From Fructobacillus ficulneus (GTDB taxonomy: Bacteria; Bacillota; Bacilli; Lactobacillales; Lactobacillaceae), in contig NZ_DF967986.1 of NCBI RefSeq assembly GCF_001047075.2, positions 1-49,907 on the forward strand: DNA of 49,907 bases, read 5' to 3'. The notes beneath the pieces were generated by a model. The model was not told the DNA's origin and searched no databases. It worked only from the letters and a program-made list of their open reading frames with translations. Positions 27,465-36,828 of this stretch are shown piece by piece. The position numbers and the translations under genes were made by a program. Every line of letters starts with the position of its first letter. Within the stretch, counting starts at the first letter, position 1.

Positions 27465-27476
27465 ATTATCTGTTAT

Positions 27477-27564
27477 GGAGAAGTACTCAAGAGGCTGAAG
27501 AGGCGCCCTTGCTAAGGGTGTAGACGTGTTAAAGCGTGCGAGGGTTCGAATCCCTTCTTCTCCA
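27477..27564 (+). tRNA. tRNA-Ser (GCU), integration target
   Basis: Class II tRNA with a long variable arm. Acceptor GGAGAAG/CTTCTCC, anticodon stem CGCCC/GGGTG around TTGCTAA (GCT), variable arm GACGTGTTAAAGCGTGC, T arm GAGGGTTCGAATCCCTT. No CCA is encoded, and the base after the acceptor is A, whereas tRNA-Ser usually has G. The last 13-14 bases lie in the 15-bp repeat bounding the mobile element, so the 3' end was rebuilt by integration. Confidence 0.93.
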
Positions 27565-27565
27565 T
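27551..27565 (+). repeat. Left attachment site (attL core)
   Basis: TCCCTTCTTCTCCAT, identical to 36814-36828, covering the 3' end of tRNA-Ser. Flanking bases differ on both sides, so the core is exactly 15 bp. Confidence 0.85.
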
Positions 27566-27573
27566 TTTGCTTA

Positions 27574-27660
27574 TCAGGAGCAGTCAAGAGGGGTCACAAA
27601 ACCCAGTCTTAAGCGATTTTGATTTTTTGAGTCATCAAGAGAAGTCAAGAGAAATCAAGC
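27574..27660 (+). repeat. Two left-end triplets of TCAAGAG-type repeats, 10-bp period
   Basis: First triplet: TCAGGAG 27574, TCAAGAG 27584, TCAC 27594. Second: TCAAGAG 27635, TCAAGAG 27645, TCAAGC 27655. Every step is exactly 10 bp. The same triplet occurs twice at 35.2-35.6 kb before the integrase. Stacking on one helix face suggests a cooperatively bound protein such as an excisionase. Confidence 0.7.
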
Positions 27661-27662
27661 AA

Positions 27663-27682
27663 AAGTACAGAAAAAGGTACAG
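27663..27682 (+). repeat. Paired GTACAG site near attL (candidate integrase arm site)
   Basis: GTACAG at 27665 and 27677, 12 bp apart. The same pair is at 36756/36768, next to attR. A degenerate version (GTGCAG, 27755) lies further in. The remaining element-left sequence to 27877 holds a hairpin with a T run (27710-27732) and no gene. Confidence 0.5.
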
Positions 27683-27877
27683 AAAAAAATAAGCATGTTC
27701 TAGCTCTGTGGCGGCCCTCTGGTCGCTTTTTTTGTTGCTCTAATAACTTAAAAAGTGCAGAAAAACCTTACATAAAGAAATGCTTCCCTAACTAACAACC
27801 GTGCTTGCGAACACGCCTGTTCAAGTTGTCTAATTGTCAGCCCTGTATAATTATCTTAAAAGCTATTGGGGGATGAC

Positions 27878-28222
27878 ATGAAACAGCGTAATATCATAAG
27901 GCATTACTTCACGGGTTACGGTAAGTGGTCACTAGATGGACTTGAAAACTTAAAGGAAGAGGGGCAAGGCAGTTTTAAAGATCGGTACGCAGAAGAAAAT
28001 TATAATTTTTGGATAGAGGTACACCGTGTTTTTGATGCCTATACAGCCACACTACCCCCAGAAATTGTTAATATGGAGCGTGAGCATTATAGAGAGCGCA
28101 TCCCCTTTGGTCAGTCTTACAACGTTGTAGCTCCTACTGCTGTGATTCAAGAGGTAAACAACGAGTTGAACAGGTTGGCAAAGTCAATCGAACAGCCCGA
28201 GCGGATCAAACAAGTTAGTTAG
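27878..28222 (+). CDS. Hypothetical protein of the element (accessory)
   Basis: 114 residues from ATG 27878 with TTGGGGGATG just upstream; a TTG at 27866 is possible. The protein is soluble and charged, with an aromatic N-terminal part (IIRHYFTGYGKWSLDGLENLKEEG) and a helical C-terminus. I do not recognise it. A TATAAT at 27846-27851 may be its -10. As the first gene after attL, it may be accessory cargo. It is followed by short hairpins (for example TCCGCCA-GAAG-TGGCGGA at 28228). Confidence 0.65.
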   Translation: MKQRNIIRHYFTGYGKWSLDGLENLKEEGQGSFKDRYAEENYNFWIEVHRVFDAYTATLPPEIVNMEREHYRERIPFGQSYNVVAPTAVIQEVNNELNRLAKSIEQPERIKQVS

Positions 28223-28365
28223 TTATCTCCGCCAGAAGTGGCGGAATGCCTGTAGTACTGATTTGGTACTTGAGAAGTGTGGGCATATTTCTAAGGTCGT
28301 GAAATGCGACCCCATACTATTGTTTTAGTATTCTGGTAGAATTATATATACCCATGGGAGGACAT

Positions 28366-28728
28366 ATGATATATTTAGTAAATATTTTTAGCACTTTGGT
28401 TGCGTTAGAATTTTTTTATATTATGTATTTAGAAACATTTGCTACTGAATCAAAAGAGACCGCGCGGGTTTTTAATTTATCGAGTGAGATATTAGCAGAT
28501 AAAAATTTGCAAACGTTATTTAAAAATCAAGGAGTCTACAATGGTCTGATTGGTGTGGGAATTCTATACGCTGTTCTTTTTATGCCAGAAATGCTGTTAC
28601 CGATCATGATTTATATCGTCTTAGTAGCACTGTATGGCAGCCTATCGAGTGGGAATAAGACTCTCGTTTTTAAACAGTCAGGGTTAGCTATGTTAACGAT
28701 TCTATTAATACTGTTAGAACACCTTTAA
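28366..28728 (+). CDS. DUF1304-like small membrane protein
   Basis: 120 residues with four membrane helices (about 4-22, 52-68, 73-92, 103-119). The segment LFKNQGVYNGLIGVGILYAVLF matches the DUF1304 pattern of an NQG-YN motif leading into a helix. I start at ATG 28366, with GGGAGG seven bases upstream; the in-frame ATG at 28354 contains that ribosome site. Function unknown. Such genes are usually chromosomal, so here it is probably cargo on the element. Confidence 0.75.
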   Translation: MIYLVNIFSTLVALEFFYIMYLETFATESKETARVFNLSSEILADKNLQTLFKNQGVYNGLIGVGILYAVLFMPEMLLPIMIYIVLVALYGSLSSGNKTLVFKQSGLAMLTILLILLEHL

Positions 28729-29010
28729 GGCGATTTGTGCTTTTTTTAAAGTAAATCATCTTTTTAGACCTGACATAACGAAACGTTATGCCAGCTTATC
28801 TTTTCTTGTCACATGGTCAAACTCTCGACAGAAGTGTCGAAAAAGAAAAATCTAGCATGTTCGCCACGATTGGCGAAAATAGAAATTGTTCCCACTTAAC
28901 AACATCACATATAGGTGCTGTTGTGAGATCATCCCCACATAAAAAGGCAGGGTGTGCTTACATCCACGCCCTGAAAGAAAAAGCCTTACTCAATCGAGTA
29001 GGGCTATTTT
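28729..29010. other. Non-coding stretch with consecutive short hairpins
   Basis: No credible gene. Six inverted repeats of different sequence follow each other: CATAACG-AAA-CGTTATG (28774), CGACA-GAAG-TGTCG (28827), TTCGCCA-CGAT-TGGCGAA (28860), ACAACATCAC/GTGCTGTTGT (28900-28926), CAGGGTGTG/CCACGCCCTG (about 28950-28975), and AGCCTTACTC-AATC-GAGTAGGGCT plus T run (28982-29010), the last a terminator. Either a structured RNA or a protein-binding DNA region. Confidence 0.55.
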
Positions 29011-29022
29011 TGTGCTTAATTA

Positions 29023-29624
29023 TGCCAACAAATGCCAACATCTAGAACCTGACAAAACTTGACATAAAAACCTATGCTTACAACCTAATAAAACCTAATA
29101 TGTGTTATTACTAAAACTTGTCAAAACATGACATTAAAACCTGTGAAAACCTGTCATTAAAAATGCTATCAAAAGCTATCATTTATGTGAGTAAAAGTAA
29201 GTATTTTATACCAACTAATACCATCATTTTATCCCAACATTTTCCAACATTTAACCTTAACAATTCTTAACATTTATTCCAGTATTTTCCAGTGTGAACC
29301 TTAGCATTTCTTAGCATGTAATTGCAGTGTTTTGTAGTATATGAAGGCCAATATATAGCCATCCAGATCAGTGAATAAAGGCCGTTAAAAGCGTTGCAAC
29401 GTTGCAGAAAGTGTTGCAACCTTTTTGGGGGATGGTTGCAAAAGGTTGCATAAAAAAAGTTACACAAGGTTACACCCAAAAAGTTACATAGTTACAGGCT
29501 TTAAAACTTGGTTTAAGCGCCCTTATTGTGGGAATGGTTGCTAGTAATTACTAGTATTTGCAGGATATAAAATGTTAGTAAATGTCAGTATTTTAAACCC
29601 AAATAATCCTAGCAATTCCTAGCA
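29023..29624 (+). repeat. Array of degenerate paired decamers, about 23-bp period
   Basis: At least 16 units, each two copies of a short word exactly 10 bp apart. Examples: TGCCAACA (29023/29033), TGACA (29050/29060), ACCTAATA (29083/29093), GCTATCA (29165/29175), CTTAACA (29256/29266), TTCCAGT (29277/29287), CTTAGCAT (29300/29310), GGTTGCA (29434/29444), GTTACAC (29459/29469), TCCTAGCA (29607/29617). The word changes from unit to unit but the pair agrees. From 29118 to 29338 units recur every 22-25 bp. The region is A/T-rich and has no gene. Confidence 0.8.
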
Positions 29625-29956
29625 TTTTTCAGTATAGGGCTATGAATAAGGCGCAAAGGTGTGCACACAAAAATAAAAAAAGGGTGCACCCGAAAAGGTC
29701 ACAAAAAAGTCACAAGGTCACACCTTTATATTCTGTTCAAAAAGTCGAAAAGGGGTTTGATTGTAAACACATAGCAAAATAAAAAGCACTCACACAAATG
29801 TGAATGCTGAATGAGTAGACGAGTGGGAGACTATTGTAGGTGTGCCTACATTTGTAATTATTCCATCCCCATTAGTGGCAACTTACAGGCGTAGGTGTGC
29901 CTACGGGTTAAAAATAGTCATTCAATAAAAGGCATAATGCCTTACAACTTTCTATA
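29625..29956. other. Non-coding stretch with inverted repeats
   Basis: No gene. It has loose GTGCAC and GTCAC repeats (29661-29721), then AGCACTCACA-CAAA-TGTGAATGCT (29786), two copies of the hairpin GTAGG-TGTG-CCTAC (about 29837 and 29891), and AGGCAT-A-ATGCCT (about 29930). It continues the repeat-rich left part of the element. Confidence 0.5.
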
Positions 29957-30142
29957 TTAGCTCATATGGATAGCGTTTATAAGCAGGATAATAGCGCCTA
30001 AAATAAAAATCAAAGAACCCCAGATGATTTGAGTGATGACACTTTTATCGCCAAAGTAGAGCCGTAACAGTGGTGCAATGCTACCAAAAATAAGGATAAT
30101 GATACCAATAAATACGAGTGCCAATCCAATAAGTGCAATCAT
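29957..30142 (-). CDS. Small two-helix membrane protein of the element
   Basis: 61 residues, almost entirely two membrane helices (about 2-24 and 36-58) joined by LRLYFGDKSVITQ. AAGGAG seven bases before the ATG supports translation. It is downstream of the CI-like repressor on the same strand, so it may be expressed in the integrated state. Lysogeny-expressed small membrane proteins in phages often block superinfection; that role is only a guess. Confidence 0.6.
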   Translation of the reverse strand: MIALIGLALVFIGIIILIFGSIAPLLRLYFGDKSVITQIIWGSLIFILGAIILLINAIHMS

Positions 30143-30183
30143 TTTTTTCTCCTTGAATATTTAAAATAGGTTTTTCAACGTGT

Positions 30184-30207
30184 AAGCCCCATAGCGGGCT
30201 TTTTTTA
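30184..30207 (+). terminator. Plus-strand terminator at the end of the repressor gene
   Basis: AAGCCC-CATAGC-GGGCTT followed by T on the plus strand, so it would stop plus-strand transcripts entering the repressor gene antisense. Confidence 0.6.
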
Positions 30208-30846
30208 TTTGTTTTGTTTTTCAAGATACTCTAGCACTTCTGAAAAGGCTTTTATCATTTCAGGCTTAAAGGTCTCATCATCAAAAACCTCTCCATCTGT
30301 GATAGCTAAATTAAGATACTCATTGATGAATGCAAGGTTGTTCAATGTTGTTTCATCCCCATTAGATAGTAGTGATAAAACTGAAACAACATACATATTT
30401 TCAACTAGAGATAATTCATCATTATTAACTCTTGCCACTAATTTTTTTGCCTGTTTTCTTGATCTTGCACTGTAAGAAATACGGGCTTTTTCTGTGGCAT
30501 CCTTTATGGGTTTCATGGTGTTTTCGATAATATTTTTGAGCACATTTTGAGTGTTAAAACTTGGAAAAATATTATTTATCATAGCGTTAAAATCTGCCGG
30601 TGTTTTAGGCTCTGGATATATGGCTGTTGTATCTTTAGTGATATCAACAATATCTAATCCCTGTAAAAAATCAACATCTACATGGAAAAAGTCAGCGAGT
30701 TTTTGCCATACTTCATGCTTACCCGTTTTAACTACTCCAGTTTCATATCTAGAAAGGGTGGCATATGTAACACCTAATTTTTCGGACAATTGTTTAAGTG
30801 TTAGTCCTTCTTCTTCTCTTAGTTCTCTGATTCTGTTTTTTTCCAA
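30205..30846 (-). CDS. CI-like repressor, XRE family
   Basis: 213 residues. The N-terminal XRE helix-turn-helix (residues 4-58) reads IRELREEEGLTLKQLSEKLG then VTYATLSRYETG. The rest is mostly charged helix with no peptidase-like LexA/S24 motif, so de-repression would not be by classical RecA-stimulated autocleavage. Divergent from the Cro-like gene with three similar operators between, which is the standard immunity switch. The Rha-type gene or a helper-phage protein might relieve repression. Confidence 0.85.
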   Translation of the reverse strand: MEKNRIRELREEEGLTLKQLSEKLGVTYATLSRYETGVVKTGKHEVWQKLADFFHVDVDFLQGLDIVDITKDTTAIYPEPKTPADFNAMINNIFPSFNTQNVLKNIIENTMKPIKDATEKARISYSARSRKQAKKLVARVNNDELSLVENMYVVSVLSLLSNGDETTLNNLAFINEYLNLAITDGEVFDDETFKPEMIKAFSEVLEYLEKQNK

Positions 30847-30888
30847 TGTAATAACTCCTACTGTTTGTCTACAAGAATAATAACATTA

Positions 30889-30980
30889 TTTACGAAAAAC
30901 GAAAATAAATATTAAAAAATATTGACTTTACAAAAAACGTAAAGTAAGATTAGTTTTGTTGATTTACATAAAACGTAAAG
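30889..30980. promoter_or_regulatory. Divergent switch: three operators and the early promoter
   Basis: Three related sites: TTTACGAAAAACGAAAA (30889), CTTTACAAAAAACGTAAAG (30926) and ATTTACATAAAACGTAAAG (30962). The early rightward promoter is TTGACT (30922-30927), 17-base spacer, TAAGAT (30945-30950). The second operator covers its -35 and spacer, the third lies around +12, and the first lies toward the repressor gene. Confidence 0.8.
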
Positions 30981-30992
30981 ATGGAGGAACGG

Positions 30993-31187
30993 ATGAAAGT
31001 TTTAACGAAAAACTTTGTTGACGCCTTGACAGTTAAACAGGCACGAGAGCGCCTAAACTATGGGCAGTTAGCAGAAAAGACTGGAGTTAATAGCGTGACT
31101 ATCTCACGAATTATTAACCGCAAGGTAGACACAGCACAAGAACGTACGTTCGATAAGTTAAACGATTGGTTGCTTAAGGAGGTGTAA
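30993..31187 (+). CDS. Cro-like XRE-family regulator
   Basis: 64 residues from ATG 30993 with GGAGG in front; the ATG at 30981 contains that ribosome site. A bare helix-turn-helix domain: RERLNYGQLAEKTGVNSVTI followed by SRIINRK. First gene of the rightward operon and directly behind operator 3. By position and size it is the Cro counterpart of the CI-like repressor. Confidence 0.8.
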   Translation: MKVLTKNFVDALTVKQARERLNYGQLAEKTGVNSVTISRIINRKVDTAQERTFDKLNDWLLKEV

Positions 31188-31190
31188 GCA

Positions 31191-31394
31191 ATGGACCAAC
31201 ACACGACATCACAGACCGTCACAGAGTGGCCTAGGTGGCTCAATTTGAAAGACGGGGCCAAGTATGCAGGCTGTTCCGTGAATACGTTCCGCAGGCACTT
31301 GGTGGCCACAGGAAGAGTGACCGCACACTTAACCGACTTTGGTAATAGGTACGACAGGGACGAAATCAGCCAGGCTATTGAAAACTGGTATTAA
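31191..31394 (+). CDS. Excisionase-like winged-helix protein
   Basis: 67 residues: WLNLKDGAKYAGCSVNTFRRHL, a MerR/Xis-type (HTH_17) start where a single helix-turn-helix reads a target, then FGNRYDRDEISQAIENWY, the usual wing and helix end. Such proteins direct integrases toward excision. Ribosome site AAGGAGG lies inside the cro stop region, so it is co-translated. The 10-bp TCAAGAG triplets near both element ends are candidate binding sites. Confidence 0.7.
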   Translation: MDQHTTSQTVTEWPRWLNLKDGAKYAGCSVNTFRRHLVATGRVTAHLTDFGNRYDRDEISQAIENWY

Positions 31395-31403
31395 GGGGGA
31401 TGT

Positions 31404-31529
31404 ATGCAACTTTGGAATATTTTTACAACGCTGGTTACAGTCACATGTATAGCAGTAGTGGCCCTAGAAATCGGCTTTGAATTGGGACGACAAGACAAAA
31501 AGGGGCGGGATCACAATGGGCAACAATGA
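31404..31529 (+). CDS. Short membrane peptide
   Basis: 41 residues from ATG 31404 (AAGGGGGATGT upstream): one membrane helix (about 4-25) followed by a short charged tail (RQDKKGRDHNGQQ). Good ribosome site and tight packing support it, but the size leaves doubt. Function unknown. Confidence 0.5.
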   Translation: MQLWNIFTTLVTVTCIAVVALEIGFELGRQDKKGRDHNGQQ

Positions 31530-31605
31530 GTACAGCAAAGAAGTTTTTAGCTCTGTCATGTATTTAAAGGAGAATATGCAGTATGGAAGAGTTGGTATTT
31601 TTTAA
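31516..31605 (+). CDS. Possible 29-residue peptide overlapping the Rha gene
   Basis: ATG 31516 opens a 29-codon frame that overlaps the preceding peptide by 14 bases and the Rha gene start by 23. The ribosome site is weak. It may be a coupling or leader frame, or chance. Confidence 0.25.
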   Translation: MGNNEYSKEVFSSVMYLKENMQYGRVGIF

Positions 31606-32212
31606 AGGAATTGGAGCTAAAGCAAAGCTTTACACTACAACCGAAGTAATCGCTGAATATACAGGCATTAAATATAAGTCAGTGTATGAGTCAGTGCGAA
31701 ATAATCAAGATGATCTAAAAGAGTTGGGGGTATTACCATTTGAAATGGTAGTACCTCAAAAAGGCACGGTAGGGGGACAACCTAAAAAGGTTTACCAACT
31801 TAATGAGCCACAAGCTACCCTGCTAATCACTTACCTCCGAAACACACCGCAGGTAAAGAAGTTTAAAAAGGCATTGGTCAAGGCTTTTTACAGCATGAAG
31901 CAGGAACTAGATCAGGCAAAGTTAAGCCGAGAACTTAACAAGCGGGCCAATATTAGCCTAGCCGAAACGATTAAGGAAGAGCTACCCAATGACCCACACG
32001 CTTACAGCAATTACCACCAACTAGCCTATAAGTATGTAACGGGCATGACACCCAAGCAACTCAAAAAGGCTAAGGGTGTGAACAAACCAGAAGAGGCGCT
32101 AGACAACAGTCAGAAGGAGCGCCTGGAGCGAGCAAAACAAAATATTGCCCTGTTTATTATGGATGGCAACGAATACCAAGACATCAAAGCAAAGTTGTTT
32201 GCTGATATTTAG
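31583..32212 (+). CDS. Rha-family phage regulatory protein
   Basis: 209 residues. The N-terminal Rha-type domain has YTTTEVIAEYTGIKYKSVYE and the diagnostic KVYQLNEPQATLLITYLRNT followed by a charged helix. A helical C-terminal domain (about 120-209) contains YHQLAYKYVTGMTPKQLKKA and may set specificity. Rha proteins regulate lambdoid-type phages and satellites, often as antirepressors. AAGGAG precedes the ATG by ten bases. Confidence 0.8.
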   Translation: MEELVFFKGIGAKAKLYTTTEVIAEYTGIKYKSVYESVRNNQDDLKELGVLPFEMVVPQKGTVGGQPKKVYQLNEPQATLLITYLRNTPQVKKFKKALVKAFYSMKQELDQAKLSRELNKRANISLAETIKEELPNDPHAYSNYHQLAYKYVTGMTPKQLKKAKGVNKPEEALDNSQKERLERAKQNIALFIMDGNEYQDIKAKLFADI

Positions 32213-32230
32213 GAAAGGAGAGCCAAAAGC

Positions 32231-32602
32231 ATGAAAAAAGGCACAAAAAAGCACCCCCTGCAAGTTTGGCGACTAGATGGGGATGACTTGAAACAAACGC
32301 CTTTTAATACGGCTATTTGGCTATATTTTAACATGAAACCAACAGCAACTAAAACAGATATGTTACTGCTTTTAAATAACTATACAGATTCGGTAGACTC
32401 TCGCAGTATCAGAATAAACATTCTAATTAATCATATTGAAAGGATAGTAAGTAACATTGAGGAAATCGAGTTAAATGAATATTTGAGTGGTCGGATCAGT
32501 GAGCTAAATGAAACTATTTTCTTTGTTCAATCTGAAATGGACGCACTAGATAACCAAACTAAGAGCGTTGGCGAGGCAATAGCAATAGGAGGCAGTAAAT
32601 GA
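32231..32602 (+). CDS. Hypothetical protein of the replication operon
   Basis: 123 residues, helical: a basic start (MKKGTKKHPLQVWRLDGDDL) and a likely coiled coil from about 55 to 110. GAAAGGAG upstream of ATG. It overlaps the next gene by four bases (ATGA). Not recognised. Its place just before the wHTH and prim-pol genes suggests an accessory replication or regulatory role. Confidence 0.65.
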   Translation: MKKGTKKHPLQVWRLDGDDLKQTPFNTAIWLYFNMKPTATKTDMLLLLNNYTDSVDSRSIRINILINHIERIVSNIEEIELNEYLSGRISELNETIFFVQSEMDALDNQTKSVGEAIAIGGSK

Positions 32603-32922
32603 CTAACGTAAGACACCAGGACCAATTAACAGCACGGGAGAAGGCTGTATATATGGCCTTACCTTTTGGGCAAGAGAACGCTATTAAAGTACATGCCTTA
32701 GCTAAAAAGGTTGGCATTCCAGTAAGAAGGTTGTACAGCATTTTAAGCCACCTATCTGAACAGGGCTATTTGGTTGGTAGTCTCCGCAATCAACAGGGCG
32801 GAGTGTACAGAATTGTTAATAGTGACGAGTATTTTTATACCCTGAACATGCTCCGCAACAATGCTAAGAGCTATGAAAGGCGAGTGAACGGGCTAGAACA
32901 ACACAGGGAGCGTTTTGAATGA
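32599..32922 (+). CDS. Winged-helix DNA-binding protein
   Basis: 107 residues. A MarR/ArsR-like winged helix spans about 12-75: TAREKAVYMALPFGQENAI, then LAKKVGIPVRRLYSILSHLSEQG and the wing LVGSLRNQQGGVYRIV. A charged helical tail follows. Coupled by ATGA overlaps to its neighbours on both sides. Direct coupling to prim-pol suggests an origin-binding initiator or a replication control factor. It could instead be a plain regulator. Confidence 0.6.
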   Translation: MTNVRHQDQLTAREKAVYMALPFGQENAIKVHALAKKVGIPVRRLYSILSHLSEQGYLVGSLRNQQGGVYRIVNSDEYFYTLNMLRNNAKSYERRVNGLEQHRERFE

Positions 32923-33737
32923 ATGAAGACCAAGCTACCAAAATAAAGGCCCTCATGAAGATGGGCGCTTATATCTACATTGCTCAACCCAATACTAAAT
33001 ACAACAAAGAAGAGGGCGGACATAAAAACAGCTTCAATCACTGGGAAGATTTAGAAGAGTGGCTGGCATGGCATCCCCAATATGAGGGCGGAAATATTGG
33101 CATTGATTTAGATCGGTCGCCCTTTGTGGTTGTTGATGTGGACCAACACAGTGCCAACGGTTTACAGAGCTTAAAAGATTATTTAAAACGTCAGCAGGTT
33201 TCCCCTGAGGTTATCTCGGCAACATACTTAGAAAAGACTGCAGGAGGTGGTTGGCACGTTTTTTATACTGACACAGCCAATCAGTCCAAAACAAGACAAA
33301 TAAACGCTGTGGACGGTTTAGACGTGTTAAATAGTGGCGGTGTTATTGTTTCGCCCTCTGTTATTGATGGAAATGATTATAAAGCGGTTACGGACTTAAA
33401 CACGATACAAGAAAGGCCGAACTGGGTGGACAAGATTGGTCAAACTCAAACCAGTAAGCACCTTGGAAACAGACAAGCTAAGTACAGCATAGCCGAACGG
33501 TGGAACATGGTGGCTAATGGTTTTACCACAGGCCAACGCAATGACCAGGCTACTAGTCTGATTGGTTGGGTTCTCTCTTCTCATGTTGCCCCAGCGGTTG
33601 CCTTTAATGTGGCCATGGCAGTCAATCAACAAAGCCCCGAACCTCTCAGCTATGGCGAACTTGAAAAGGTCTATATGAGCGTGTTAAAGCGTGAAATCAA
33701 GCGGGCCAAGAATAGGGGGCGAGTAATTGGCGACTGA
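32919..33737 (+). CDS. Bifunctional DNA primase/polymerase (prim-pol)
   Basis: 272 residues, archaeo-eukaryotic primase fold. Catalytic DxD in VVVDVDQHSANG (D73, D75), the GGGWHVFY motif with H113, and a GGVIVSPSVI strand. The C-terminal part (from about 205) is a small helical domain. It makes primers and extends them at the element's own origin. It overlaps the SF3 helicase gene by 11 bases, so the two are translated together as a split primase-helicase. Confidence 0.85.
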   Translation: MNEDQATKIKALMKMGAYIYIAQPNTKYNKEEGGHKNSFNHWEDLEEWLAWHPQYEGGNIGIDLDRSPFVVVDVDQHSANGLQSLKDYLKRQQVSPEVISATYLEKTAGGGWHVFYTDTANQSKTRQINAVDGLDVLNSGGVIVSPSVIDGNDYKAVTDLNTIQERPNWVDKIGQTQTSKHLGNRQAKYSIAERWNMVANGFTTGQRNDQATSLIGWVLSSHVAPAVAFNVAMAVNQQSPEPLSYGELEKVYMSVLKREIKRAKNRGRVIGD

Positions 33738-35157
33738 AAAAGAACAGCTAGAACAGGTATTTGCTGACACTGTGGCCCAAAAGGTCGACTGGGTTCAATA
33801 TAACCAAGATGGGAAAGCCGTTGGGGTCAAATATGTAGAGTTAGCAGACCTTATTATAAAAGAACATCCTTTTTTGGCCGTTCCGTTTGGGGATGAGCTA
33901 ACCTATTACAGTTATAACGGTGTTAGCTGGGATAAAGTGACAAAAGCTAGAGCTAAAGAGCAGACAGAGCGGTATGCCTTTGACTATTTGAAATCAGCAG
34001 ACGTCTACAGACCCAGAAGGATGCAAGATGTGGCCAAAACAGTGCTGGTAAATGGGCAACAGGATCATAATCCCTTCACTGACCAAAATACTGACCGAGT
34101 GGCCTTTAAGAATGGCACTTATATGCTTGATAGTGGCGAAATGAGGCCGAACGGTCCAAAAGATTATTTAATAAATGGCCACCAGATTGAGGCACAACCA
34201 GGGAAAGCATCCCCCAATATTAATGCTTGGGGTTCATACTTGTTTGGACCGTCATGGCAGTATGTTAAAGAGGTGCTAGGGTATGCTTTTATTCCTGAAC
34301 AGACTACCTTTAACACCATCACAATTCTGTTAGATGAGACGGGTGGCAGTGGCAAAAGCTACTTTGTTGAAAAGATTGTTAGGCCCTTGATTGGTCAAAA
34401 TAATATCACAGCTAAAGACATTGATACCCTGACAGGTAGCAACGGTAAAAGTAACCGCTTTGGCACTTTTGACCTCATCAACAAGCTAGCAAATATCCAC
34501 TTAGATATTCCTGATACACGGATTGACATGCCCGACACGCTTAAAACGTTATCGGGTGGGGATGTTGTGGAGGTTGAGGGAAAGGGGACAAACTCGGTCA
34601 GTGTGAAGCTATATGCTCTTTTGATTTTCGCTAGTAATAACAAACCTAAAATAGCAGTTAGCTCCGCCTTGTTACAGCGTATGCACCTTGTGCCTGTGGT
34701 TGCTCCCAAGGTTCGGGACAATCCTCAAGAGGCCAGAGCACGGGCAAGCCTATGGAATGAAGAAAAGGCTGTAAAGGAGCTAGGTGGCTTTGCTATAGAG
34801 TGCATTGAGGCCTTTAAGCAAGCGAAAGCCCAAGGGCGTTTGAGTGTTAATGATGAGATTGAGGAAGTTACAAAGGATTGGGCGACTAGTCAAGATTTGG
34901 TAGCCACTTTCTTGTTAGAAGCTAAGAAAGAAATGCCAGAAGGTTACACGGGTGGAATATCCAAACAGGTAGCCTTTGCACGTTATCGAGAATGGCTGAT
35001 AGATAACGGCATAGAATCCAAAATAAATAAGAAGAGTTTTGGAACAGTTTTGGAACAAAAAGGCTTTTTATCCATAAAAACACGCAATCACCCAGAAGGT
35101 GACAACTCTGGAAACGTAGCAAGTTGGCTAGGTTTAGACCTTGAAAAGTACAATTAG
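33727..35157 (+). CDS. SF3-type replicative helicase (D5/P4-like)
   Basis: 476 residues. D5-N-like domain, then SF3 helicase core: Walker A LLDETGGSGKSYF (K210), Walker B region LANIHLDIPDT, motif C LLIFASNNKP, and a C-terminal winged-helix-like end. TTG start 33727 with AGGGGGCG upstream; the frame has no better start. With prim-pol it forms the replication module typical of satellites and some plasmids. Confidence 0.88.
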   Translation: MATEKEQLEQVFADTVAQKVDWVQYNQDGKAVGVKYVELADLIIKEHPFLAVPFGDELTYYSYNGVSWDKVTKARAKEQTERYAFDYLKSADVYRPRRMQDVAKTVLVNGQQDHNPFTDQNTDRVAFKNGTYMLDSGEMRPNGPKDYLINGHQIEAQPGKASPNINAWGSYLFGPSWQYVKEVLGYAFIPEQTTFNTITILLDETGGSGKSYFVEKIVRPLIGQNNITAKDIDTLTGSNGKSNRFGTFDLINKLANIHLDIPDTRIDMPDTLKTLSGGDVVEVEGKGTNSVSVKLYALLIFASNNKPKIAVSSALLQRMHLVPVVAPKVRDNPQEARARASLWNEEKAVKELGGFAIECIEAFKQAKAQGRLSVNDEIEEVTKDWATSQDLVATFLLEAKKEMPEGYTGGISKQVAFARYREWLIDNGIESKINKKSFGTVLEQKGFLSIKTRNHPEGDNSGNVASWLGLDLEKYN

Positions 35158-35194
35158 CCCCATTTTTTAGTGTTTTTGTTCCATTAACAAAACG

Positions 35195-35219
35195 TCAAGA
35201 GCAGTCAAGAGTAGTCACG
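35195..35219 (+). repeat. Right-hand TCAAGAG triplet 1
   Basis: TCAAGAG 35195, TCAAGAG 35205, TCACG 35215: the same 10-bp-spaced triplet as near attL. Confidence 0.65.
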
Positions 35220-35527
35220 GTTCCAATCGGGTTCTAAAACTGAAATTCTCAAAACCATTGAGGCTCTAAGGTTTATATATATTTTGTTCCATTTGTTCCA
35301 GTGTTTAGGTACTTGGTGAAAGTTGCAAAGAGAAAAAGAAGAAGTAAATACGTAAAAATACTCTATATATAGTAGGGCAGTATGGCGGAAAAGTGGGGCA
35401 TTTTGGAACAAAATAGGCATAACGCTTACAGCCACAAGGGTTACATCGTTTTTAGTTTTGGAACATAAAACGGAACACAACAACTAAAAAAGAACATTGT
35501 GCAAAAGGTAAAACGGTGGCAAAATAG

Positions 35528-35577
35528 GGGGCGTGGTAGTCAAGAGTAATCAAGAGCTATCACGCCCTTTTTAATTT
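35528..35577 (+). terminator. Terminator whose loop carries TCAAGAG triplet 2
   Basis: GGGCGTGGTAG pairs with CTATCACGCCC (one wobble), followed by five T. TCAAGAG 35540 and TCAAGAG 35550 fill the loop and TCACG 35560 is in the 3' arm. It ends the replication operon before int, and a protein bound to the triplet could affect it. Confidence 0.6.
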
Positions 35578-35619
35578 TGCTTGACCTTTAAGGAGCTAGA
35601 ACGGTCGGAGAGGCAAAAG

Positions 35620-36744
35620 ATGAAATTAAAAGAGGTTGAAAGTAAAAAAGGTAAGTCGTGGGAAGTTTCAGGAATGCTTGGGACTAACTATGACAAAACA
35701 AAAGCACGAGTCCAGAAGAGAGGCTTTACAAGTAAGCGAACAGCACAGGCATGGTTCAATAATGAAAAGGTTTTATTTGAGAATGGTAATAGTAAATACA
35801 ACAAAAAAGCCCCCAAGAACGTGCTAACCGTTCGGGAGCTTTATCAAATTTGGCTAGATGGCTATCAGAATACGGTAGAAGAGAGTACCCTAGCCAAAGT
35901 ATTGAACTATTTTGATTTGCACATTTTACCAGTTTGGGGGGATGTGCTTGTTAATCAGATAGAGCCAATTAAATTACAGGGTTATCTTAACACAATGCAG
36001 GCCAAACTTCTAAGATATAAAAAGGTGGTTGGCTACCTTAATCAACTTACTAAGTTAGCTGTAAAGATGGATATGATTGAGGTTGACCCGTTTACTAAGG
36101 TTTATATGCCAAGGGAACGAAAAAGCCAGCCCACTAAGAAGGCCATGGATGGGGATGAGTTCCGCAATTTTATCAGTGTGCTAGATAGTCAATATTGTCA
36201 GATCAATCGGCAGGCTTACACGCTTTTAAGGTTGGTGGCCTTTACTGGTATGAGAACAGAGGAAGTTCTAGCCTTGCAGTGGCAACACGTTGACTTTGAT
36301 GGCGGTTATATCAACATAGAACAAGCGCTAGGCCGTGGCTTGCATGGTGGCACTTATATTAAGGGCACTAAGAGCGTGACCAGTACTAGAACAATCAAAG
36401 TTGCTACTGATATGCTTAGGGTGCTCTCACACTGGTATAACTTAAGCCAACGCAATGAGCCGACTGATTTTGTATTTAACAATAATGGGAAGCCGTTGCA
36501 ATCCTTAAGGCCCAATAAGTGGCTACATGAAGTTAGTGACCAGTATAAAGTAGCCAATGGGGTAGCAATGCACGGCCTCCGCCACACTTGGGCCACGTTA
36601 GCCCTGGAGCAAGGTGCAAGCGTGAAGCAGGTACAGAGTTATTTGGGCCATGCTGATGCAAATATAACCTTAAATATCTATGCAGAGATAACGAAAAAAG
36701 CAAAGGAGCAAACAGGGGAGTTTTTGACTGGATTAATCAGTTAG
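35620..36744 (+). CDS. int: Tyrosine-family site-specific integrase
   Basis: 374 residues from ATG 35620 (GGTCGGAGAGG upstream); a TTG at 35581 lies in the terminator tail. The N-terminal arm-binding domain has the AP2-like KGKSWEVSGMLG start and the core-binding SAM-like domain covers about 70-150. Catalytic residues: R212 (FTGMRTEE), H318-x-x-R321 (HGLRHTWA), the GHA histidine near 345 and Y354 (LNIYAEIT). It ends 70 bases before attR, whose core lies in the tRNA-Ser 3' end. Confidence 0.93.
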   Translation: MKLKEVESKKGKSWEVSGMLGTNYDKTKARVQKRGFTSKRTAQAWFNNEKVLFENGNSKYNKKAPKNVLTVRELYQIWLDGYQNTVEESTLAKVLNYFDLHILPVWGDVLVNQIEPIKLQGYLNTMQAKLLRYKKVVGYLNQLTKLAVKMDMIEVDPFTKVYMPRERKSQPTKKAMDGDEFRNFISVLDSQYCQINRQAYTLLRLVAFTGMRTEEVLALQWQHVDFDGGYINIEQALGRGLHGGTYIKGTKSVTSTRTIKVATDMLRVLSHWYNLSQRNEPTDFVFNNNGKPLQSLRPNKWLHEVSDQYKVANGVAMHGLRHTWATLALEQGASVKQVQSYLGHADANITLNIYAEITKKAKEQTGEFLTGLIS

Positions 36745-36753
36745 CAAGGGAAA

Positions 36754-36772
36754 AAGTACAGAAAAAGGTACA
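36754..36772 (+). repeat. Paired GTACAG site near attR (candidate integrase arm site)
   Basis: GTACAG at 36756 and GTACA at 36768, 12 bp apart, matching the pair just inside attL. Confidence 0.5.
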
Positions 36773-36813
36773 ATATTAGTGATAAAGCCCATAACACCAG
36801 TGATTAACTGGAG

Positions 36814-36828
36814 TCCCTTCTTCTCCAT
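36814..36828 (+). repeat. Right attachment site (attR core)
   Basis: TCCCTTCTTCTCCAT, identical to the end of tRNA-Ser at 27551-27565; no tRNA body precedes it. Confidence 0.85.

Follow-up and report, generated by a model that had tools for sequence, protein, structure and literature searches.

How the small terminase subunit (TerS) of phages selects pac DNA is, by one account, poorly defined (PMC4737164). In SPP1, pac lies across the stretch of gene 1 coding for the DNA-binding domain of TerS (PMC6316719), and the isolated DNA-binding domain of SF6 TerS has been reported to bind without sequence preference (PMC4737164). Among phage satellites, some PICIs carry the pac or cos site of their helper in place of a terS gene of their own, and the PICI origin is laid out as two sets of iterons around an A/T-rich region just 3' of rep (PMC6092414). 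Here, we describe an array of doubled words in a satellite of Fructobacillus ficulneus that we consider, with a probability of roughly 0.78, to be a collection of pac-type sites for the start of packaging, each suited to one class of helper TerS.

The window (the whole 49.9-kb stretch of F. ficulneus DNA that was analysed) carries a 9.3-kb integrated prim-pol/SF3 satellite at tRNA-Ser (Table 1; L and G numbers are our own handles). As read from its sequence, the element is a PICI-like phage satellite by gene content: integrase, divergent repressor, xis-like gene, primase and helicase module and att sites are all present and structural genes are absent. In addition to the genes listed in the table, it encodes a minus-strand HTH repressor, small HTH genes, a weakly Xis-like protein (phrog_66, E 0.005) and a Rha protein. 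Searched as DNA against phages, the whole element gave no match. In the candidate origin, GTTCCA / TGGAAC repeats flank an A/T-rich stretch on both sides (read by eye). TCAAGAG-type direct repeats, 10 bp apart, lie near both ends of the element (27574-27660, 35195-35218 and 35540-35563) and are probably integrase arm sites, whilst a TTTACNNAAAACG-type sequence that occurs three times between the divergent repressor and an HTH gene (30889-30980) probably represents operators. A 118-aa protein (27866-28222) has no Pfam or PHROG match and gave no match in plasmids; its relatives are found in other satellites and in the array-less Convivina locus L049, and one lies next to a similar mini-array on a separate 4-kb contig of the window's own genome (L042:2841-3160).

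Table 1 Features of the satellite and units of the array, with words given on the strand shown
Feature	Position	Strand	Remarks
Integrated satellite	27552..36828		bounded by att repeats, at tRNA-Ser 27476-27565
att repeats CCCTTCTTCTCCAT	27552-27565 and 36815-36828		ends of satellite
Terminator-like hairpin and T run	28977..29013	+	read by eye
Unit 1	29024..29043	+	GCCAAC x2, spacer AAAT; best terS match only 15/20
Unit 2	29044..29063	-	GTCAAG/GTCAGG; 19/20 to terS pair L318
Unit 3	29080..29099	-	ATTAGG x2; 20/20 to Fructobacillus prophage terS pair (L272, G005), frame shifted two bases
Unit 4	29113..29132	-	GTCATG/GACAAG; imperfect, read by eye
Unit 5	29136..29155	-	GACAGG/CACAGG; 18/20 to terS L377
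Unit 6	29161..29180	-	GATAGC x2; best terS 16/20
Unit 7	29187..29206	+	GTGAGT/GTAAGT; imperfect, read by eye
Unit 8	29210..29229	+	ACCAAC/ACCATC; best terS 16/20
Unit 9	29233..29252	+	CCCAAC/TCCAAC; 18/20 to terS L379
Unit 10	29256..29275	+	CTTAAC x2; 17/20 to terS L373
Unit 11	29278..29297	+	TCCAGT x2; 18/20 to terS L383, L391, L392, shifted frame
Unit 12	29300..29319	+	CTTAGC x2; 18/20 to terS L359
Unit 13	29323..29342	+	TGCAGT/TGTAGT; best terS 16/20
Unit 14	29431..29450	-	TGCAAC x2; 18/20 to Fructobacillus terS L280
Unit 15	29540..29559	+	GCTAGT/ACTAGT; best terS 15/20 this frame, 17/20 other strand
Unit 16	29574..29593	+	GTTAGT/GTCAGT; best terS 15/20 in this frame
Unit 17	29608..29627	+	CCTAGC x2; 17/20 to Fructobacillus terS L278
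Winged-helix-type protein	32599..32922	+	adjoins prim-pol; phrog_2113; TrmB-like below Pfam cut-off
Prim-Pol	32919..33737	+	PF09250, PF08708
SF3/D5-type helicase	33727..35157	+	DUF5906, D5_N
Candidate PICI-type origin	35160..35470		directly 3' of SF3, by eye
Tyrosine integrase	35581..36744	+	PF00589

The array lies in an ORF-poor gap, overlapped by two mechanical ORFs (85 and 70 aa). It follows a hairpin of which a close copy precedes the array in the seven Fructobacillus/Convivina relatives read by eye. Between 29023 and 29624, 4-mers recur at lag 10 in 69 cases, where 300 dinucleotide shuffles average 4.3 (z 24), and at lag 23 in 37 cases against 4.2 (z 13), making this the strongest lag-10 site anywhere in the window. 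A strict scan of the whole window finds 16 units, compared with a mean of 1.75 and a maximum of 6 in block shuffles. The array is thus real and far beyond chance, with an excess at both of the lags for which the initial annotation had proposed autocorrelation.

Each unit consists of a 6-bp word (approximately NNYADN) followed by a 4-bp A/T tract, the whole doubled with a period of 10 in a register set by terS. The words vary from unit to unit whilst the two halves of a unit agree, although several pairs are imperfect: the strict scan gives 13 units in 29000-29740, or 17 with imperfect ones added by eye. Units occur on both strands, mostly minus in 29044-29180 and plus in 29187-29342. A regular block that the annotation had put at nine to ten units comprises ten, with starts from 29113 to 29323 and a spacing of 22-26 bp. 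To its left the spacing is 20-36 bp; to its right the 24 or 34 bp noted in the annotation is joined by a gap of ~110 bp. The repeat had been called a paired decamer, and whilst the period of 10 holds, what matches between halves is not a decamer but a word of 6-7 bp, the other 3-4 bp being an A/T spacer. The identical helical phasing proposed between units fails, 23 bp not being a whole number of helical turns. A second set of repeats (GTTGCA, GTTACA, GTCACA and GTGCAC with A/T tracts) is present at 29386-29490 and 29650-29725, and unit 14 falls within a GTTGCA stretch of this kind that is retained in array-less L049, where, by eye, a similar stretch lies close to a TATAAT-like box that precedes a zinc-ribbon-like gene. 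Searched against phages, the GTTGCA-type stretch gave 28 matches, none labelled terS and one in an unannotated record, though one unit is 18/20 identical to a Fructobacillus terS.

Agreement between halves was measured on 24 array stretches containing 245 distinct CA-10-CA places. Where two core positions agree (117 places), the rest of the 7-bp core agrees in 83-94% of cases and the spacer in 49-65%; under a second condition (156 places), the values are 72-84% and 57-64%. Composition predicts 25-46%, and core agreement holds also at a position of almost flat composition. With spacer agreement as the condition (85 places), agreement at the core's far end falls to 51-55%, so that the boundary between word and spacer is graded rather than sharp. 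It is scarcely credible that the pairs are a functionless by-product of replication slippage in A/T-rich DNA. Such an origin would fit the graded boundary, the many pairs that run over 10 bp or more and the variable copy number of units (CCTCAG occurs three times in L034 but twice in L035, and TCCAAC has four copies in L262). The word agrees more strongly than the spacer, however; the motif is common to several genera; and slippage alone cannot give the fixed place inside terS described below. The pairs look selected, one of the two options that the annotation had offered. Slipped-strand DNA, also weighed as a source of the agreement between halves, was not retained.

Of 60 genomes, 18 have a relative of the SF3 helicase, the window's own among them. 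The comparison with other prim-pol/SF3 satellites that the annotation had called for proved positive: the window and seven of eight Fructobacillus/Convivina loci (two loci being from one strain) have an array upstream of SF3, the exception being L049. No array is seen in L031 (SF3 50%), nor in L036, L037 and L039; contig-end fragments (L029, L030, L032, L033) were left out of this judgement. L036 and L039 encode a Terminase_4 TerS, and L036, which also has a terminase-large-like ORF, looks like a prophage on that account. A DNA search with a single array matched 38 of 397 family genomes, own included, and nine of the 14 non-array match places compared with terS coordinates fall inside terS. 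Fifteen loci of other genera (L092-L106), all picked up through DNA similarity to an array, have lag-10 clusters with different words, some of them weak (L105, L106), and in seven of the 15 the fetched stretch encodes Prim-Pol or helicase relatives (or a VapE-type helicase). Eight streptococcal satellites contain two to six units in a loose scan, where shuffled sequences average 0.65-1.05 and reach at most 2-4, and only some of these units are credible. The window's array region found no match in plasmids; with the L026 array as query, two streptococcal satellites and a Latilactobacillus curvatus plasmid with an integrated satellite were found at E 0.01. Pattern scans of viral contigs yielded at least 153 loci, at least 22 of which have a lag-10 cluster, most of the clusters being unrelated or unclear by their genes (ten inspected).

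Could the array be a replication origin or a regulatory array read by the satellite's own wHTH, SF3 and Xis proteins? Direct repeats spaced by roughly one turn of the helix within an A/T-rich gap would suit an iteron region, relatives of the wHTH, Prim-Pol and Rha proteins are present in most array-bearing Fructobacillus and Convivina elements, and in L094 and L097 the array lies 3' of the SF3 relative at distances of ~0.2 kb and ~1.1 kb, respectively. An iteron origin, however, would be expected to repeat one word, where here the words differ inside one array, and the element has a separate PICI-type origin candidate (by eye). Moreover, the Convivina loci L049 and L050, compared over their shared core, are 98.7% identical across this 9.7-kb replication-integration core and share all these genes, with an array in L050 only, indicating that the core genes do not depend on the array. 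(L050 also has about 13 tandem 5-bp units, ACAGA, at positions 190-255 in a likely restriction specificity gene, a tract read by eye that is possibly phase-variable.) Taken together with the occurrence of the same pairs in phage terS genes, these points make an origin or regulatory array very unlikely. The initial annotation had offered an initiator, a partition (centromere) protein and a packaging factor as possible ligands, acting as a cooperative filament. The first is not supported on the evidence just given, and the second is opposed by the absence of partition families among 13 window proteins (Pfam), by the non-uniform words and by the L049/L050 difference; nothing was found in favour of a filament, and of the three guesses only the packaging factor agrees with our reading. 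An analogy with Pho-box-like tandem sites for the wHTH protein was set aside once the terS matches emerged.

These matches came to light in weak BLAST comparisons (E 0.07-10) of the window array with phages. Among the 60 matches listed, out of 79, 18 lie in annotated terS genes and represent 15 phages, three of which appear twice; satellites account for a further 15 (SA-TP1 and 14 named as satellites), and 27 lie elsewhere, with unit 9 the source of most of the terS matches. Another array as query placed 12 of 21 matches in terS and four in satellites. The terS genes of phiNJ2, StB27 and Javan115 have TCCCAACA doubled at 10 bp and that of BE28 has TTCCAACA; Javan258 has another doubled word at the same place, encoding different amino acids, and the Javan1 pair is imperfect.

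We therefore examined 123 Lactobacillaceae Terminase_2 terS genes (13 genus places plus the 110 best-scoring others, repeats removed). Of 294 6-mer matches at lag 10, 283 fall at domain positions 110-129. Other lags give 21-27 matches in all (7, 8, 11 and 13) or 58 and 81 (9 and 12, which are whole codons), spread out. A best run of at least 6 at the fixed place is found in 84 of the 123 genes compared with two of 1041 control windows. The place was first noticed in 43 genes; of the 80 added afterwards, 50 show such a run. Synonymous recoding predicts 7.0 genes where 84 were seen or, for runs of at least 8, 1.36 where 59 were seen; pairs so far above expectation imply a constraint on the DNA, not on the protein. 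The remaining 39 genes have no run of 6, and 36 of them none at neighbouring lags either. The pair is not a feature of Terminase_4 genes, which form another terS family (any lag-10 6-mer repeat in 3/30, against 89/123 for Terminase_2), nor was it found in the LL-H terS. In 80alpha there is a 6-bp run at the same terS place, and the TP901-1 terS (L394:2063-2473) has an 11-bp version, TTTTGGTAAGG twice, at about the same place.

Word similarity tracks the TerS DNA-binding domain: over 84 genes the partial rank correlation is 0.37 (Mantel p 0.001), the value for the TerS C-terminus being only 0.14. Of the words with a final G, 30 of 32 belong to short TerS proteins (no longer than 235 aa), whereas other words more often belong to long ones (28 of 47). 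This covariation bears on the idea that the pair is a site for some other phage late function, such as an ArpU/RinA-type activator, and lies in terS by chance. Proteins of phrog_248 (transcriptional activator) are indeed encoded near the arrays of L092, L093, L095, L096, L099 and L101, and one small HTH protein of the window weakly matches a late-activator family (E 0.005). None of the eight window proteins scanned against PHROGs matches phrog_248, however, and a word that covaries with the TerS DNA-binding domain and a place that matches that of the SPP1 pac (PMC6316719) both speak against such a site. We regard it as highly improbable.

Do array words and terS words correspond? The terS pair window matches a satellite array at 18/20 or better in 71 of the 123 genes, 11 of them exactly, compared with one of 1888 other windows of the same genes and one of 123 with shuffled arrays. 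The arrays used here included three stretches (L043 4721-5160, L045 3421-3860 and L048 2801-3240) that are att-end repeats and a GGTCACA run; without them the figures are still 71/123 and 1/1888. Fructobacillus and Convivina arrays alone match 49 of the 123 genes at this level against 1/1888. Real terS words were also compared with recombined words of the same motif on the Fructobacillus arrays: 39 of 92 real and 6 of 105 recombined words match at 18/20 or better, 20/92 and 0/105 at 19 or better, with only a small contrast at 16 or better (75/92 and 70/105). At high identity, the match between array and terS therefore goes beyond a shared motif. The terS genes of the satellite's own genus fit no better than those of other genera (4/13 and 35/79 at 18/20 or better), so no tailoring to local prophages is seen. 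Units 1, 6, 8, 13, 15 and 16 have no terS match above 17/20 in the 123-gene sample.

Further evidence comes from the satellites' own gene content. With the Terminase_2 and Terminase_4 profiles, no TerS-like gene was found in the window, in the array-bearing loci scanned (L044, L048 and L092 being cut by contig ends) or in array-less L049, where, with neither array nor TerS-like gene, packaging must be solved otherwise. The Terminase_2 profile detected 20 of 20 positive-control loci, and among 33 loci gave a TerS-like ORF, a weak one, only in array-less L031. This related-genus satellite ORF (L031:2009-2416) matches the PHROGs terminase small subunit at E 5e-5 and falls below the Pfam cut-off for Terminase_2.

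On the packaging-address reading, each unit resembles the paired site inside the terS gene of headful (pac) phages of this host range, a pair that TerS would recognise within the phage's own gene and at which packaging would start. The two half-words would match because one TerS species reads both, and words would differ between units because each suits another TerS specificity class. The satellite, in which no TerS-like gene was detected, would excise, replicate and then be recognised and packaged by whichever of several helper phages is present. What speaks for this is, at the level of sequence, the array and its recurrence, the fixed terS pair, the word matching and covariation and the lack of a TerS-like gene in scanned array loci, together with the place of the SPP1 pac; the preference-free binding of the SF6 domain counts against it, as do the terS genes with no run of 6, the six units with no terS match above 17/20, array-less L049 and the absence of a better fit to terS of the same genus. 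The units might instead bind helper TerS chiefly as decoys, blocking packaging of the helper rather than starting that of the satellite. Decoys would show the same word matching to terS pairs, and the PICI protein Ppi is described as binding phage TerS and reducing phage packaging (PMC12597102). One or two sites per word would seem to make a poor sponge, however, and packaging of an element that has no TerS still requires a site, none other having been identified in searches aimed at TerS. One element can serve both roles, but a mainly blocking function appears unlikely.

A broader reading, which we think more likely than not, is that the phages of Lactobacillales are packaged by means of a readable address code, namely a 6-bp word repeated after 10 bp that lies inside terS and is matched to the TerS DNA-binding domain, and that satellites without TerS maintain multi-address arrays for many helpers. 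Arrays that gain, lose and diversify units would then form a record of the helpers used by a satellite lineage, suggesting a generalist strategy based on many packaging addresses rather than a terminase. A fixed, word-coded pair in so many terS genes (84/123) offers a testable recognition code: the pair could allow pac sites and transduction-prone places to be predicted from sequence, and the words which helpers move which satellite.

We found no description of such an array in open-licence PMC papers, and within that literature the annotation's statement that it knew no repeat family of this form holds, though the same pairs are present in phage terS. Several known systems nevertheless resemble it in part. 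Like SaPI-type PICIs, the window satellite is PICI-like in gene content and order, but those elements have their own TerS and none was found here. With PICI and P4-type iteron origins the array shares clustered short direct repeats in a satellite gap, differing in that its words are not alike and that a near-identical element does without it. The pac sites of the SPP1/SF6 type likewise comprise direct repeats in terS over the part encoding the DNA-binding domain, with repeats before and within the start of terS (PMC6316719, PMC4737164), whereas here there is one compact period-10 pair whose word changes from phage to phage, and many different pairs are gathered in the satellite. Also related are the PICIs that lack TerS and borrow the packaging signal of their helper (PMC6092414); where these have one signal for one helper, the window satellite has ~13-17 sites of many word classes.
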